Virus record (IMG/VR): IMGVR_UViG_3300024348_000026
Span: 1-64,000 of that record
Source: a virus
Reading direction: 5' to 3' (one strand)
DNA length: 64,000 nucleotides
The position numbers and the translations under genes were made by a program. Shown one piece after another: positions 7,295-52,100 of this stretch (its first letter is position 1; each line of letters begins with the position of its first letter). The notes beneath the pieces were generated by a model. The model searched no databases and was not told the DNA's origin. It saw nothing but the letters and a program-made list of their open reading frames with translations.

Positions 7295-7870
7295 CTAAAT
7301 TGTATAAAGTTTATTCATCCAATCAACATAATCTTGGCTATACCAATAAGGTTTTTCTGTGAATTTCCAAGTTGCTATGTCTTTTTTATCGAATATATAA
7401 TACATTCTATATTTGTCAATAGGATGGAGATATTCAAAAAATGGAAGCTTGCGGCATTCGCAATCTGGATTAATGGCAACTGCGTATGCTGTCATTCCAT
7501 GAAGGGTGGATGGCAAGAAGTCTGGCGCTAACGATTTCGCTTGATCCCGCATTTTATAAATTCCAGCTTCACAAAAATGAATTTTATTATATCTTTTTGT
7601 GTATTCTTTGCATAGAGCGATACCAATTTCCGCACCCTGCATAAAATTAAAGTAAGAGTCCCCAAACCATTTAGTTACTGGATGATTTTTATGGGATTCT
7701 GCTGGCGCAGACCCTGATTTTGTAAATGGAAGCTTTTGATTGTCCACTCCGCGACGAATTAAAGCAGAAACCATCATTTGAAAACTTTCTGTGGGCATCT
7801 TAACGATGTGTTTGTCACAGTGGAATTTTGCGCATTCTCTAGGATCGGACGCAAGCAAGAATAAGTTCAT
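7295..7870 (-). CDS. phage protein of the CDKHIVKM family
   Basis: 191 aa. The N-terminus LFLLASDPRECAKFHCDKHIVKM is typical of a conserved phage family often labelled pyrimidine-dimer glycosylase-like. Then come HPVTKWFGDSYFNF and YYIFDKKDIATW. I recognise the family pattern but not a proven activity. The start at the ATG rather than the upstream TTG follows from the promoter spacing. Confidence 0.7.
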   Translation of the reverse strand: MNLFLLASDPRECAKFHCDKHIVKMPTESFQMMVSALIRRGVDNQKLPFTKSGSAPAESHKNHPVTKWFGDSYFNFMQGAEIGIALCKEYTKRYNKIHFCEAGIYKMRDQAKSLAPDFLPSTLHGMTAYAVAINPDCECRKLPFFEYLHPIDKYRMYYIFDKKDIATWKFTEKPYWYSQDYVDWMNKLYTI

Positions 7871-7904
7871 ACGCAAAATTTATCCTTTTCAGAAAGAAAG
7901 TCAA
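7871..7904 (-). promoter_or_regulatory. sigma70-type promoter, leaderless
   Basis: TTGACT, 16 bp, TAAATT, TTGCGT, then ATG. Confidence 0.75.
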
Positions 7905-18556: not shown

Positions 18557-18565
18557 TTTGAAAAT

Positions 18566-18635
18566 TGCAGGTGCGAGAATCGAACTCGCTTACGAGGCTT
18601 ATGAAACCCCTTTCTGAACCATTCGAATTACCTGC
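18566..18635 (-). tRNA. tRNA-Met (anticodon CAT)
   Basis: Loop TTCATAA in GGGGT/GCCTC, T arm GCGAG-TTCGATT-CTCGC, acceptor GCAGGTA with one mismatch, A73, no encoded CCA. Could also be a tRNA-Ile read after C34 modification; sequence alone does not decide. Confidence 0.8.
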
Positions 18636-18639
18636 GATT

Positions 18640-18722
18640 GAAAAATAAAGGTGTCCTACCATTAGACGACGACGAGCAATAAGCGTATCGGTAGGGGTCG
18701 AACCTACATTTCCTTAAAATTT
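18640..18722 (-). other. tRNA halves in inverted order (U)
   Basis: On the minus strand a perfect T arm (GTAGG-TTCGACC-CCTAC, 18691-18707) comes before a typical D arm (GTCTAATGGTAGGAC, 18653-18667). The flanks carry AAGG and CCTT, which would pair as an anticodon stem if the two outer ends were joined. The acceptor parts pair poorly (CGA/TCG plus GC/GC). Confidence 0.4.
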
Positions 18723-18729
18723 GTAAAAT

Positions 18730-18806
18730 TGGTCAGGCATGTGGAATTTGAATCCACAATCTCAACATCCCAAATGTTGCGCGATACCAAGTTACGCTAA
18801 TGCCTG
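18730..18806 (-). tRNA. tRNA-Pro (anticodon TGG)
   Basis: Perfect acceptor CAGGCAT/ATGCCTG, anticodon stem CAACA/TGTTG with TTTGGGA, T arm TGTGG-ATTCAAATT-CCACA region, encoded CCA. Confidence 0.85.
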
Positions 18807-18878
18807 ATTGACGCCCCCGTGCAATCTGTTACACTAATCAATATCGGAGTCGCACCGCTCTTGAGGCTGAATCTATAA
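18807..18878 (-). other. tRNA halves in inverted order (W)
   Basis: A T-arm-like AGCGG-TGCGACT-CCG segment precedes a D arm GTGTAACAGATTGCAC (18819-18834). The outer flanks GCCTC and GGGGC are complementary (5 bp) as an anticodon stem would be. Almost no acceptor sequence lies between the arms. Same inverted layout as the 18640-18722 element. Confidence 0.35.
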
Positions 18879-18880
18879 AT

Positions 18881-18956
18881 TGGTCATGCTAGGGGGATTT
18901 GAACCCTCCAATGACACGTTGAAAGCGTGTCGTGCTAACCTTTACACTATAGCATG
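18881..18956 (-). tRNA. tRNA-Glu (anticodon TTC)
   Basis: Perfect acceptor CATGCTA/TAGCATG, anticodon stem GACACG/CGTGTC with CTTTCAA, T arm GGAGGGTTCAAATCCCCC, encoded CCA. First tRNA of the array in the direction of transcription. Confidence 0.9.
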
Positions 18957-19474: not shown

Positions 19475-20050
19475 TTACCACAAATTTTTCAAGAAATAAT
19501 TCCATTCTTGGCGAATTTTTTCTGCATTAAGCATTAAGGCTGGAATTGCAGGTGGTTTTGGTATTTGTCCATTCTTATCATGCCAAGGAGTCAGGTCTGC
19601 CTTTTTGAGGTTGCATTTGCGGCAAGCTAGAACGAGATTATTATGATCGTTGCTGCCGCCCTTGCTCTTTGGATGAATATGATCGAGGGTTAAATCTTTT
19701 AAATGATATTTTTCAAAACAATATTGACAAGTATAGTCGCAAAGTTTTGCAAGATCAAATAAAGTTAATTTTGTTTTTTTTGGTTTTCTGAAGAATTTGC
19801 TTGTTACGATAATTACTGTAGGAATTGGCCAACCTGCGTGGGCGCTTCTTAAGAACGGTTGATCATCATAATATTCTGCTTGACTATTCCAGCTATCTAA
19901 AGAATGAAACACAGAACTGTTTTTGTCTAACGCGGAAATTCTTTTTTTATGCAAATGCTGAAATGCGGCCCGTGCGGTGACAACTGTAATTGGTTGCCAT
20001 GCGTTATTAAGAAGCAGGGTTGTTTTTGTATTTGCTGTTACAGCGTTCAT
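19475..20050 (-). CDS. HNH endonuclease
   Basis: 191 aa. The C-terminal domain has CDYTCQYC, LTLDHIHPKSKGGSNDHNN and CRKCN: a zinc-stabilised HNH nuclease with DH and N as core residues. The N-terminus (LLLNNAWQPITVV) is typical of the stand-alone HNH group common in phages and bacteria. The ATG overlaps the stop of the gene upstream. Confidence 0.9.
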   Translation of the reverse strand: MNAVTANTKTTLLLNNAWQPITVVTARAAFQHLHKKRISALDKNSSVFHSLDSWNSQAEYYDDQPFLRSAHAGWPIPTVIIVTSKFFRKPKKTKLTLFDLAKLCDYTCQYCFEKYHLKDLTLDHIHPKSKGGSNDHNNLVLACRKCNLKKADLTPWHDKNGQIPKPPAIPALMLNAEKIRQEWNYFLKNLW

Positions 20051-20401: not shown

Positions 20402-21106
20402 TTAAATGTCTTTTGCTCCTAATTCTTTTGCTCTTTCGTCGCTAAGGACAGAATACCAACCTCTTATAATTCTAAGTTTGCCTTTTTCGCCAGTATCCTG
20501 ACAAGTTTTTAAACTTAAATATTCTGCTAGTCGAATCATTCCGTTAACGTTTTTATCTCCACCGTCAATATAAAATCTAAGCGATCCAAATTTTTCTTTA
20601 TATTGGGCGACTTTTACTGGTCGCGGTTTTTTATTAATATAAAAGTTTTGACTATTACGGATCTTTTGATCGATTTTTGATGTCAGGCGACGAACCTTTG
20701 CCGCAAATGTTTTATCTTGTTTTTCTTTTTGTTCTTTAGTGATGAGGAGTTTGGAGTGTTTATCCCAAGGGCAGAAAAAGTAATCGATTTTTGCCTTCGC
20801 TTTCGTCCAAACCTTATAAAGAGAGTATCTGAATTTTTTGTCTGGGTCAAGGACTACTTGAGTAGTATTTTTTTGATAATCAAGGATGCATCCAAAAAGG
20901 TTGTCAACGATCTTCTCCCACCCCTTGGGGCAAGAATTCCAGCATCTTTGAGATTGAGGTAGAAGCTTTCCTTCCTCGTCTGTTTCAAACAGATCTGGAT
21001 ATTTAGAAAAAAGATAATCTTCGAAATCGATATCTTCTTTTACGTCATCATCGATCTTTTCGATCAGCTCTTTTACTGTTTTGATTTTCATATACTTGTT
21101 TTTCAT
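20402..21106 (-). CDS. conserved phage protein with EKFGSLRFYIDG motif
   Basis: 234 aa. The C-terminal third has KVAQYKEKFGSLRFYIDGGD, MIRLAEYLSLKTCQDTG and RGWYSVLSDE, a domain I know from many phage proteins of unknown function. The N-terminal part is lysine-rich with CPKGWEKIVDNLFGC. Promoter ends 5 nt before ATG. Confidence 0.75.
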   Translation of the reverse strand: MKNKYMKIKTVKELIEKIDDDVKEDIDFEDYLFSKYPDLFETDEEGKLLPQSQRCWNSCPKGWEKIVDNLFGCILDYQKNTTQVVLDPDKKFRYSLYKVWTKAKAKIDYFFCPWDKHSKLLITKEQKEKQDKTFAAKVRRLTSKIDQKIRNSQNFYINKKPRPVKVAQYKEKFGSLRFYIDGGDKNVNGMIRLAEYLSLKTCQDTGEKGKLRIIRGWYSVLSDERAKELGAKDI

Positions 21107-34374: not shown

Positions 34375-36309
34375 TTAGATCATTTTCATTACTGCTCTGA
34401 ATTCTTCCCTAGTCAACTTTGGTTTTGAGCTATGGTAGCTTTCGTGAGCGTGAGAGAAAGAAGTAAAGATTTTCGATCTTGTCGTTTGCTGGTTAAGGAT
34501 AGAGTTCCAAAACTTAGTTACGCGATCTGCGTTTTTTTCTTTTTTAATCAAAATAATTGTTTTGGGATTGAAAGACAACCAAGGTTTTAGGGCTTTTGCT
34601 ATCTTCAACCGTGCGGCGTTTTTCTCTTGTTCCTCTTTCGCCCACCCTTGAACGAGTTTTGAGTGTTCATCGCGCCCATGAATAAAAAATCCCAAGGCTT
34701 GGATGGCTTGGCCAAGCTCTTCCGATTGGCAACTCCATGCATTATATCTACTTTTGCCGCCGATATGGATAGAAATCCACTCCAATCTGCTTGTATCTTT
34801 TTTGTCGATTACTTTTTTCTTTTCTTCTTTGACCCATTCAATGAGTTTTGTGAGATCGGGTTCAGCAGGAAGGCTAAAACGTTCTTCTCGCACAAGATTA
34901 AGAAATCCTACGGCATTGAAGCTTCCTTTTTTACGATCCTTGCAATAAACCGCATAGGTTTTTTCGCGTTTCCCTTTTGGAAAGGGAATCCTTTTGACCG
35001 TCATTGTTTGAAAAATGCCATCAATTTCAGTGGCTGCTTCTGGCGAAAGTTTAGAAAATTTAGATTGGCAACCAATATAATAACTTTCATTATTTTGAAT
35101 GGCAAAAGTTCGCAATTTGGACCTCCAATAATCTGTAGCCGAATTGTCTGGAATTAAAACAAGGATTGGTTTGTCGTTTTTAAGGACAAAGTTATGTTTT
35201 TTGTCTTCTTTAAAATTGGAAACGGTAATCCCCCCTACAAAGCCCCAAGTTTCTTTAAAAATAGAAGCGAGTTTTGCTTGAAACATTGAGCCGTCGCACC
35301 ATTTATGAAAAGAGATTTCGCCCAAGTTTTCATCGATAACATCTTTTAGGGGTTTGGATTTGATGTGAGCAAAATCTTTTTGGGTTAGCTCCTCTAAGAT
35401 ATTATGAATTTTGCTTTTATAGTTTTGATTGAGAGGGGTGTCGTGAAAAGACTCGCGGGAAAGAGCAACCGTCATAGCTCCAATTGGAACATTGATTGCT
35501 AGAGTGTGATCATTCTTTACCAAAAAGCCATCGGGAATACTAAAGCTTTCGTATTTAACGCCGCCCATTTGCAAGACTGCTTGATTATTTTTGTCGCGCC
35601 CAAAGATGCCGCCAAAAAGAGTGAATTCGACGTTGTTAATTACTTCTTTTTTGGCAATTGGATAAGGCTTAATCTCGTCTCCCAAAACATTAGCCTCGAT
35701 GTTATGAGGGGAAAAATAAACAAAACTCCTGATTTCGTTGGAGAATTTGTTTGAGTCTAAGTGCTGAATTGGGACAACCACTTCCAGACCTGTTTCATTG
35801 GATGGTTCAGAATGAGTTTTGTAAATAAACCCATTGGAAGACCCTTTGTTGTCGCCGCCAAGAGCGCAGGTATAAATTGTTTTTTCTCCTCCAAAATAAG
35901 AGATCACATAATAAGAATCAGTATAGCAGAATCCAGATTTTGAACCCACGCCGTAGGCTCCGACTGTTTTGTTATCGTTGAGTTTGGTGGAGTTTCCATA
36001 CATTCCAAAAACCGTGCGAATTTCTTTTTCTGAAAGTCCTTTTGCGAAATCTCGCACAAAAAATTCACGCTGATTGTCCATTTCTCGCAATCCAATTTTT
36101 ACAGGATCAGCGATATTGAATTTGAGGTGCTCGTCTAATCCGTTACTCGTAAATTCACGGACGACAGCTAGGGCTTTGTTGGTATAAATTGTATCTCGCA
36201 AATGTTTTGCCATTTGCAAGGCTGCTTCTTGACTCATCCCCATAATTGAGGCATTTGGATCAAAACCATCGGAAACAATAAGAGGAGAGGCGGAATTAGC
36301 GATTTTCAT
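34375..36309 (-). CDS. rIIA: RIIA-like GHKL ATPase-fold protein
   Basis: 644 aa. ALAVVREFTSNGLDEH (residues 47-61; E52, N56) is the N-box. VRDFAKGLS and VGAYGVGSKSGF are the G1 and G2 boxes of a GHKL ATPase, as in T4 RIIA. The remainder is a long RIIA-type C-terminal region. Expected to act with RIIB at the membrane. Confidence 0.9.
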   Translation of the reverse strand: MKIANSASPLIVSDGFDPNASIMGMSQEAALQMAKHLRDTIYTNKALAVVREFTSNGLDEHLKFNIADPVKIGLREMDNQREFFVRDFAKGLSEKEIRTVFGMYGNSTKLNDNKTVGAYGVGSKSGFCYTDSYYVISYFGGEKTIYTCALGGDNKGSSNGFIYKTHSEPSNETGLEVVVPIQHLDSNKFSNEIRSFVYFSPHNIEANVLGDEIKPYPIAKKEVINNVEFTLFGGIFGRDKNNQAVLQMGGVKYESFSIPDGFLVKNDHTLAINVPIGAMTVALSRESFHDTPLNQNYKSKIHNILEELTQKDFAHIKSKPLKDVIDENLGEISFHKWCDGSMFQAKLASIFKETWGFVGGITVSNFKEDKKHNFVLKNDKPILVLIPDNSATDYWRSKLRTFAIQNNESYYIGCQSKFSKLSPEAATEIDGIFQTMTVKRIPFPKGKREKTYAVYCKDRKKGSFNAVGFLNLVREERFSLPAEPDLTKLIEWVKEEKKKVIDKKDTSRLEWISIHIGGKSRYNAWSCQSEELGQAIQALGFFIHGRDEHSKLVQGWAKEEQEKNAARLKIAKALKPWLSFNPKTIILIKKEKNADRVTKFWNSILNQQTTRSKIFTSFSHAHESYHSSKPKLTREEFRAVMKMI

Positions 36310-49190: not shown

Positions 49191-52100
49191 ATCATTTATT
49201 AAAAAAGATTGGACTAGCTGGAGCTAAGGGTTCTAAACCTAAAGCTAAACCCGCTATTTTAAAACCTCCTGTTGTCGGAGAGCTTCAGCTTTCCTCGTCT
49301 TATAGCTACGCAGAAACCCTAGATATTATAAGTGATGGACCTATTGAAGGTTTAGTTAATAAAAATGGGCTGACTTTAACAGACGAACATATTTTACAGG
49401 GAATATATTTGGACGATACCCCTATTGCTGTATCAAATGATCAAGCCTTGAGTAGAGGGGCTTCTTATGATCCTCTTTTTACTGGCATTTATAATACGGG
49501 GGAATTGATCTCTGGATCTGTCCAGCTTTTTAATAATTTAAAAAATTTAAATATAGCAACGTCTTCTTATGTGACTCCTTCTCATGGTTTTAAATGTATT
49601 GGCTACAAGAATAAGTTCCTTGATGATACGTCGAAAAATCAAACCTTTTTTGACGATTATGACACAGCAATAAAAATAAATCTTTCAGGAATAAGTGGCT
49701 TAAATAGGCAAGCTTATGTAAAAGGAATCGCTAGTCCTGTTGTTTTATCGGGAGTTAGTAATCAGTATTTCTTAAATACTTTTCCGCTAGATTTTAATCT
49801 TTCTATTTGGGGGTCCAATGTAATAGATGATTCTTTTATAAACCTCACTGTTCAAACGCATTTAACTTTAGTTAATCAATTAGGTTCTGCTATAACCAAT
49901 AATGCTCTAATCGGCCCATTTTTAAATGCATATGAAAAAGAATATGCAACAAAAATTTTTAATAGAAATATTATTGGAGGATGGAATCAAGCCTCCGCAA
50001 ATACTTTAGTCACTAATTGGATAAAAACAATTAAAAGACCTGGAGACATGTTCTTTGTTATAAAGGTTAAAGATTTAACTTTGGTGGCTCCTAATATTAG
50101 CTTGGTTACAGACGGCAAGTTAGATGATTTTAGATTTGTTTTAGAAAATGTTGATGGTATCGATTTATTAGAAAGAGATCCTAATGTAGAAGTCTATGAT
50201 TTTATTCTTCCAAGAATGAATGACAACGGGACCACAAACGGAAGATGCTATGGATGTCTAATATTTAAGATTAGAGGTGAAGTCAAAAAAAGAGCAAACA
50301 AAGAATCTGTATATTATGAATATTGGTATAGTTATTCTATATCGAATTCTGTTTTAAACAGTCTTTGTTTATCTACATCTTTAAAGCTTAGAAAAGTTTC
50401 TATCTCTACTAACCCATCAATAAATGATCAAAAATATAACTATACCAATATTCTTGCTGAATATAGGGATGGGTCAGAGTATCAACATCCTTTTAAATAT
50501 TTTAATAATGTTTTAATCGACAAAGCTTATAATTCTTCTTTATTAGGGCCATTTCGGGTTGATGGTTCTGTCCAAAGAATCTTAGAAAATTCTAGCACTC
50601 TTCTTACTGGTTATGGCACGAATATAGCTCCAACGGGCGCTGATCCAACTGGTCAATATTTAGAAGGGAGTATTGACGGAACGTGGTCTACGGACCCAAA
50701 AAGGCTTTCGTCAAAAAGTTACTCAGAGTGGAATGTTTCTCAATCTTCTTTTAACGAAGAGGGTTCTCCGATAAAACATGTTGTAATTAATCCGAACGTA
50801 TCTTCTGTTTTTATAACAATTTGTGTCCAATCGCTAGGGGATACCGCTTCGCAAGAGTTTAACGCCAAAACAAACTCTACCTCTAGCACAACACAGAAAA
50901 TAGATGCAGGAACAAAATTCCCAACTATTGTTAATTTGGAGGTCGAAGTTGGTATTATAAACCCAAAAGGAGAAGAGACTGTTTCTTCTAAAAGAAAGTT
51001 TAAAATAGTATCTCTTATTGAGTCTGCAACTTATATTGATATAGGAAATCCTGATGGAAGCTCTTTTAAGGATGATGATGATTATAAATTTATTTCTGAA
51101 TACTCGCCAGAGGCTGGAGCAAGCATATTTAAGCCTTTCGATCTTCCTTCTGTCGAAAGCTCGATCAGTGCTGAAGATAGCTCTTCGAAGAGGTATGTTA
51201 AAGTCTCTAAATTGTCTACAGAAACAAATTCCACTCTAATATCGAAAGAGATATCTCTTACTAAGATTACAGAAATTATTCCATCAAATTTTAGTTACCC
51301 CTTTTCCACAATTGTTGGGACAAAAATAGATTCTCGCTCTTTCTCGACTGTTCCAACAAGAACCTTCGATTGTAAATTAAAAAAAATAAAAGTTCCTTCT
51401 AATTATTATCCATGTTTGGCGAATGGAAAAGATAAAAGGTATTATTATACTATTGACGAATTTAATTTAACTGCAAAATTAGACACCTTAATTTATGATG
51501 GAGATTGGGATGGCGAATTTAAAGAAGATCTTCAATGGACAGATAATCCTGCGTGGATTCTTTACGATTTGTTGACAAACGAAAGATATGGATTGGGTCA
51601 GTATTTAGATATCTCTCAAATCGATATTTTTGACCTATATAAAATAGGAAGATTCTGCGATTCTGTCGATGATCTTGGCTACTTCCAAGGGACACCAGAT
51701 GGCGCGGGAGGTCTTGAGCCTAGATTCTCATGTAATATTTTATTTGCTGATGGAATGAAGATTTTTGATGCGATCAATGTTGTCGCGTCTTTATTTAGAG
51801 GTATTGTCTATTACAATAACTCTCAAATTAATTTTGTAGATGATCGTCCAAAAGAAACTGTAGCTTTGTTTTCTAACTCTAATGTTAAGGATGGTCTTTT
51901 TGATTACTCAAATTATAGAAGAGACGAGCAGTTTAATAGCATTGAAGTCGTCTATATAGATAGGTTTGAAAACTTCTTAACCAAAGTTGAATATGTCGAA
52001 GACGAAGAAGATATTAGAAAAAGAGGAGTTTTCAAAAAAACTATTAATGCTGATGGAGTTACTTCTAAGGCTATGGCGAGAAGACTTGGCCAACATTTAA

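Follow-up and report, generated by a model that had tools for sequence, protein, structure and literature searches.

Why should a phage transfer RNA (tRNA) array contain, between its ordinary genes, stretches in which the T arm of a tRNA comes before the D arm? The question is raised by a 64,000-nucleotide (nt) stretch, the window, of IMG/VR virus record IMGVR_UViG_3300024348_000026, a 67.5-kb record of an uncultured virus that is marked linear and is probably part of a larger genome. Its tRNA array runs on the minus strand from about 18956 to about 16319. Two units on the same strand, A and B, occupy the 74 nt from the CCA of tRNA-Glu to the first base of tRNA-Pro and the 92 nt from the CCA of tRNA-Pro to the 5' end of tRNA-Met. 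The original prediction had placed a T arm before a D arm at both sites, with outer flanks complementary as an anticodon stem and acceptor parts that are poor or missing. All of this holds, and the positions were right. The flanks pair as GCCTC/GGGGC in A (five of five positions) and TAAGG/CCTTT in B (four of five); A has no acceptor, and that of B has six of eight pairs and an internal loop. Recurrence in other phages suggests that such units are tRNA look-alikes, not broken tRNAs. The explanation favoured here, given about an even chance, is that A and B specify small non-coding permuted tRNA mimics that work as a decoy or a tether for some protein that recognises tRNA.

ARAGORN calls neither unit as a tRNA, and neither matched RF00005 in an Rfam scan that allowed E values up to 10. 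Scanning with permuted covariance models, a check that the original prediction had proposed, recovers both. Model R1 was made from 38 ordinary phage tRNAs rotated in silico at the anticodon loop, with no permuted unit included. Model R2 was made from 24 permuted units without acceptor; the window contributed none of them and a relative, contig L004, two. The best R1 match in the window is B (32.5 bits, E=8.2e-8), and the matches ranking below it are joined halves of adjacent ordinary tRNAs or lone T arms. With R2 the top match is A (33.9 bits, E=1.7e-9), followed by B (23.7 bits, E=6.7e-6); the third-best window match reaches only 14.8 bits. Tandem ordinary tRNAs also show a T arm followed by a D arm across the spacer, scoring up to 46-57 bits; R1 matches over two adjacent complete tRNAs in L002, L003 (8193-8268, 46 bits), L007 and others were discarded as artefacts of this kind. 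A and B are not such artefacts, since the Glu, Pro and Met tRNAs around them are complete and Rfam finds no other tRNA there.

The core of B, 18717-18647, adopts the permuted cloverleaf as its unconstrained minimum free energy (MFE) fold. ARAGORN calls a tRNA in B once the unit is rotated, as it does for one unit of L004 (P4, below), and not in native order. The anticodons it reports for rotated units (Lys TTT for B) were not used because the hand-made join of the ends is arbitrary. The T arm of B as an exact pattern has no match in the viral contigs. In unit A an 8-nt linker joins the T arm to the D arm, with no acceptor stem. Its outer stem pairs fully in the register set by the other units, which random 5-mers of the window do in about 1% of cases.

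Table 1. Units A and B, their parts and the flanking tRNA genes in window coordinates.
Feature	Coordinates	Strand	Basis
tRNA-Glu(TTC), ordinary	18881..18956	-	Upstream of A; CCA encoded; ARAGORN; Rfam 58.5 bits
Unit A: permuted, acceptor-less tRNA-like unit	18807..18880	-	R2 match at 18868-18813
A anticodon-stem 3' strand GCCTC	18863..18867	-	Pairs 5/5 with 18817-18813; sequence and register test
A T arm AGCGG-TGCGACT-CCGAT	18843..18859	-	4/5 pairs; loop deviates from TTCRA; sequence and alignment
A D arm GTGT-AACAGATT-GCAC	18819..18834	-	Loop without GG; sequence and alignment
A anticodon-stem 5' strand GGGGC	18813..18817	-	Sequence
tRNA-Pro(TGG), ordinary	18730..18806	-	CCA encoded; ARAGORN; Rfam 61.7 bits
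Unit B: permuted tRNA-like unit, closed acceptor hairpin	18638..18729	-	R1, R2, MFE fold
B anticodon-stem 3' strand TAAGG	18712..18716	-	Pairs 4/5 with 18651-18647; sequence and fold
B T arm GTAGG-TTCGACC-CCTAC	18691..18707	-	5/5 pairs; sequence and fold
B acceptor-like hairpin CGATACGC-TTATT-GCTCGTCG	18670..18690	-	6/8 pairs, 2x2 internal loop, no CCA
B D arm GTCT-AATGGTA-GGAC	18653..18667	-	Sequence and fold
B anticodon-stem 5' strand CCTTT	18647..18651	-	Sequence
tRNA-Met(CAT), ordinary	18564..18637	-	Downstream of B; ARAGORN; cmscan 41.9 bits

Do related phages carry a complete normal-order tRNA at these places, the finding that was to refute the original prediction? The gene upstream of the array (19475-20050), HNH-type by its sequence, was used as a lead to syntenic arrays. 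In L002 and L004 the gap between tRNA-Glu and tRNA-Pro is 6-8 nt, so the slot of A is empty. In L004 three tandem permuted units (7299-7492) occupy the slot between tRNA-Pro and tRNA-Met, the counterpart of the one with B in the window, and a fourth lies at 7810-7890; they are named P1-P4. No normal-order tRNA was found in the Glu-Pro slot of L002 or L004, nor in the Pro-Met slot of L004. The outer flanks of P1 and P4 pair at five of five positions, as in A, and those of P2 and P3 at four of five, as in B. Two of the four units have anticodon stems TTGTC/GACAA and CTTCT/AGAAG, both fully paired in the permuted register, and acceptor hairpins GGTATTCC-TTGA-GGATATAA and CGCAACTACC-CGTA-GGTGGGCG; P2 and P3 have no acceptor. 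Unforced folding gives the permuted cloverleaf for P1, P3 and P4, as for B. Reading P1-P3 instead as an acceptor-less chain in normal order (D arm, anticodon, T arm) was rejected, as the in-chain anticodon strands are unpaired whereas the permuted ones pair. Unit A and the start of the L004 chain have a common leader, CCAATTTATARATTCAG, and likewise a common end, GCACGGGGGC; the leader occurs in 19 contigs, among which only L071 (the same as L004) and L126 have tRNA arrays. A search for relatives sharing a 644-amino-acid (aa) protein (34375-36309) found none, and a 234-aa protein (20402-21106) led to one distant relative, with no tRNA array seen beside the match.

These comparisons bear on the decay or deletion fusion that had been considered for both sites. 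A deletion would have taken the 5' half of one tRNA gene and the 3' half of the next, leaving a functionless remnant to drift. Such an origin would suit the off-consensus elbow loops of A and the imperfect acceptor pairing of B; recombination is also frequent in phage tRNA arrays, and the sets of units differ among the three syntenic relatives examined. However, fusing two different tRNAs predicts non-complementary flanks, and the flanks of all six units are complementary at four or five positions. The absence of normal-order tRNAs from the slots of the relatives makes random fusion and decay unlikely as a general explanation. Relics are thus a rather unlikely account of the two units together, but unit A by itself could be a decaying relic.

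The units recur well beyond the syntenic arrays. The pattern of a T arm and, 3-16 nt further on, a D arm leaves no room for two tandem tRNAs; it is present in 83 viral contigs, and at least 65 of these have a complete D arm, in acceptor-less or capped form. A stricter pattern was found in just 2 bacterial or archaeal species genomes out of about 85,000. The pattern fixes the letters of the T and D loops and leaves the permuted anticodon stem free. In that stem 112 of 135 positions are paired, the figure for shuffled sequences being 66.8 (P<=5e-5), and across phages each of the five pairs shows changes in both strands. Both this covariation and the recurrence speak against relics. Layout, pairing, covariation in other phages and recurrence are thus seen in the sequences themselves. 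When the array and related units were compared with cultured phages by BLAST, the matches were only single ordinary tRNAs or short fragments. In the open-access literature, preprints and subscription papers being outside the scope, no permuted tRNA-like units in phage tRNA arrays were found.

The acceptor takes three designs. It is missing in A, P2, P3 and L102; it is a GNRA-capped stub of 4 base pairs (bp) at 23 places; and it is a full 7-bp stem shut by a 4-6-nt loop in L104 (65.6 bits as a rotated tRNA), L119, L105, L054 and L045. The break point also differs among units, lying in the anticodon loop, at position 26 or in the variable loop. No design leaves the acceptor end free.

The full-length design fits a second explanation, that these are genuine permuted tRNA genes as the original prediction had proposed. 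Their transcripts would be freed with 5'-phosphate and 3'-hydroxyl as the neighbouring tRNAs are processed, the ends ligated into a circle, the acceptor loop opened by RNase P and RNase Z, and CCA added. The layout is that of algae and Thermofilum (PMC3978253): as in those type II genes, with their junction in the anticodon loop, the 3' half precedes the 5' half, a short sequence separates the acceptor strands, and CCA is not part of the unit. B scores as a rotated tRNA, and the phage of L004 encodes an RtcB-type RNA ligase (401 aa; L071 6719-7924, plus strand) directly downstream of the array with the four permuted units, and in the same record an Rnl2-type RNA ligase. The 7-bp acceptor of permuted tRNAs, however, is found in L104 and L119 and not in A or B, and dozens of related units besides A, P2 and P3 lack an acceptor while others have the GNRA stub. 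CCA is absent from the units although tRNA-Glu, tRNA-Pro and most neighbouring tRNAs encode it; in most units of the array an encoded CCA closes the unit and ATTTT comes next. No bulge-helix-bulge was seen at the junction by inspection of the leader and trailer of A and B; those of A form a 2x3 internal loop plus no more than 4 additional pairs, of which one falls within tRNA-Pro, and those of B form neither. Of the conserved nucleotides (G18G19, U33, U54U55C56), B keeps GG and TTC and A has neither. U33 in A and B depends on the join assumed for the two ends, and so does the anticodon that ARAGORN reports; U33 is missing at the join in several full-length units (L105, L119). In addition, the algal and Thermofilum cases differ from A and B in that the latter belong to phages of bacteria. 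Thus the permuted layout is real and recurrent, but algal-type maturation into working tRNAs is not supported, because A has no acceptor, B has an imperfect, closed one without CCA, and there is no bulge-helix-bulge. Genuine permuted tRNA genes are therefore unlikely here. It is decidedly unlikely that the units are functional tRNAs, circularised by ligases such as the RtcB of L004 and reopened at the acceptor loop, which would be the first outside algae and archaea.

Of the known RNA architectures, the one nearest to these units is that of the tRNA-like module in the bacterial Y RNA YrlA (RF02553). In the YrlA consensus structure an outer stem bears the T arm, a closed acceptor and the D arm, an order that the MFE fold of B repeats. 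In YrlA, as in A and B, a helix replaces the anticodon stem and there is no free acceptor end, and the L104 unit aligns with the YrlA model from end to end (29.8 bits, E=7.5e-5). The acceptor hairpin of YrlA is absent in A. YrlA has a long Ro-binding outer stem, whereas the outer helices of A and B have just 5 and 4 pairs. A and B also differ in sitting within a tRNA array, with several such units per array in relatives. YrlA carries modifications made by TruB and DusA and has PNPase and Rsr as binding partners (PMC8394870), and its tRNA-like domain, which is not cut by anticodon nuclease, has been proposed as a competitive inhibitor of that enzyme (PMC7790460). YrlA has also been reported from several phages (PMC7765460).

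Could A and B be phage Y RNAs proper, whose outer stem binds a Ro60/Rsr ring protein and links it to a nuclease, as in YrlA? The order of the arms, the weak L104 match and the YrlA reports from phages are consistent with this, as is the L077 phage, where a permuted unit with CTTCT/AGAAG lies 3.7 kb from the gene of a TROVE protein. But the YrlA model (gathering score 69 bits) matched neither unit even with E values up to 10 allowed, and none of 25 records reaches its cut-off. TROVE (PF05731) is absent from the window record, which is a fragment, and from its syntenic relatives, and is present only in the phage of L077. Outer stems of 4-5 bp are too short for the known Ro-binding stem. This identity is thus very improbable. 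The TROVE/Ro60-type gene of the L077 phage lies at L277 1501-1749 (G016 50875-51123, minus strand), near tRNA genes.

Under the favoured explanation, tRNA mimicry, release, lack of charging, a binding partner and benefit to the phage are steps that we infer as follows. As the flanking tRNAs mature, cuts by RNase P and at their 3' ends would free RNAs of about 74 and 92 nt. In each, a helix resembling the anticodon stem would bear the T arm, then, in B only, the loop-capped acceptor stem, and then the D arm. Judged by this anatomy, the released RNAs would not be aminoacylated; charging is unlikely for RNAs with a closed or deleted acceptor end and no encoded CCA. The T/D elbow and upper anticodon stem would still be offered to proteins that read tRNA shape. 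The RNA may then act like the tRNA-like module of YrlA, as decoy or tether, by occupying a host or phage tRNA-recognising protein, the most plausible candidate being a defence factor that cleaves tRNA or senses tRNA damage.

Several observations weigh against tRNA mimicry. First, the anticodon loops of A and B are open, and so the units would not be direct substrates for an anticodon nuclease. Second, no Ro60/TROVE protein and no RtcB or Rnl2-type ligase is encoded in the 67.5-kb record, itself probably a partial genome. Third, L002 and L003, syntenic and with large arrays, have no such units once tandem-tRNA artefacts are discarded. Fourth, the elbow of A deviates, with a D loop lacking GG and TGCGACT in place of TTCRANN; R1 gives no match at A, and the MFE fold of A differs from the permuted one. 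For these reasons A is the weaker case of the two. The folding-energy z-scores of the units are unremarkable and uninformative.

A phage tRNA array is commonly taken to consist of ordinary tRNAs and debris, and units of this kind escape the standard tRNA finders. If mimicry is correct, phages would use tRNA mimics besides tRNAs, probably in the contest over tRNA-cutting defences, and the tRNA mimicry of bacterial Y RNAs would extend to a far smaller and more variable form. Permuted (two-piece) transfer-messenger RNA (tmRNA) also has a tRNA-like domain in permuted order. A and B differ from it in having no frame for an mRNA-like tag, and ARAGORN finds no tmRNA in the window. Other phage tRNAs resist host nucleases or replace the tRNAs that these cut, for example T5 tRNA-Lys against PARIS (PMC11455837). 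The context of tRNA-directed defence is shared, but the T5-type tRNAs are ordinary and chargeable, unlike A and B.

Other unusual RNAs accompany these arrays. In L038 an array with a permuted unit also holds a GOLLD RNA (9166-8707, minus strand; 225 bits) that contains a tRNA. The arrays of other phages include a family of carrier RNAs, 88 in 45 contigs, with a perfect 7-bp outer stem, a conserved (T)CAGCAA after its 5' strand and GTT after its 3' strand. Their payloads are often single anticodon stem-loops (7-nt loop, U33) or permuted tRNAs. TTT is the commonest anticodon, with TCT, TGT, GTA and GGA also seen, although the last scan required CTTTTAA, which enriches TTT. Examples are L042 735-790, 1754-1808 and 4438-4489, L115 217-642, and others in L039, L055, L063, L067, L113 and further contigs. 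Carrier RNAs are possibly anticodon-loop decoys. Three of them (L115 218-276, L115 592-644 and L055 1313-1373) match RF01414, the Class I RNA of Dictyostelium, at 32.5, 29.7 and 16.5 bits, below the gathering score. The part in common is the terminal stem and (U)UACAGCAA, and the resemblance may be either homology or convergence.

The window array itself has further atypical members, all on the minus strand. A 52-nt tRNA-like unit at 18556-18505, missed by ARAGORN, lacks a T arm; its acceptor has 7 bp (CGCTCCC/GGGAGCG), ACCA is encoded, and its anticodon loop, TTCATGA, is of textbook form. A tRNA-Lys(TTT)-like unit at 17886-17812, with complete stems and the T loop AGAGTTA, is called by neither ARAGORN nor Rfam. 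Two homologous units of another kind, ACCCCRCAATGAGGG...GAGCGACCTGAKCGGGG, lie at 18395-18295 and 16992-16889, and their inner stem covaries (CTTATTC/GAATAAG versus ATTCAAG/CTTGAAT). Further unannotated units of the array, such as 17121-16993 and 18291-18193, show 82-91% identity to units of L002 or L004.
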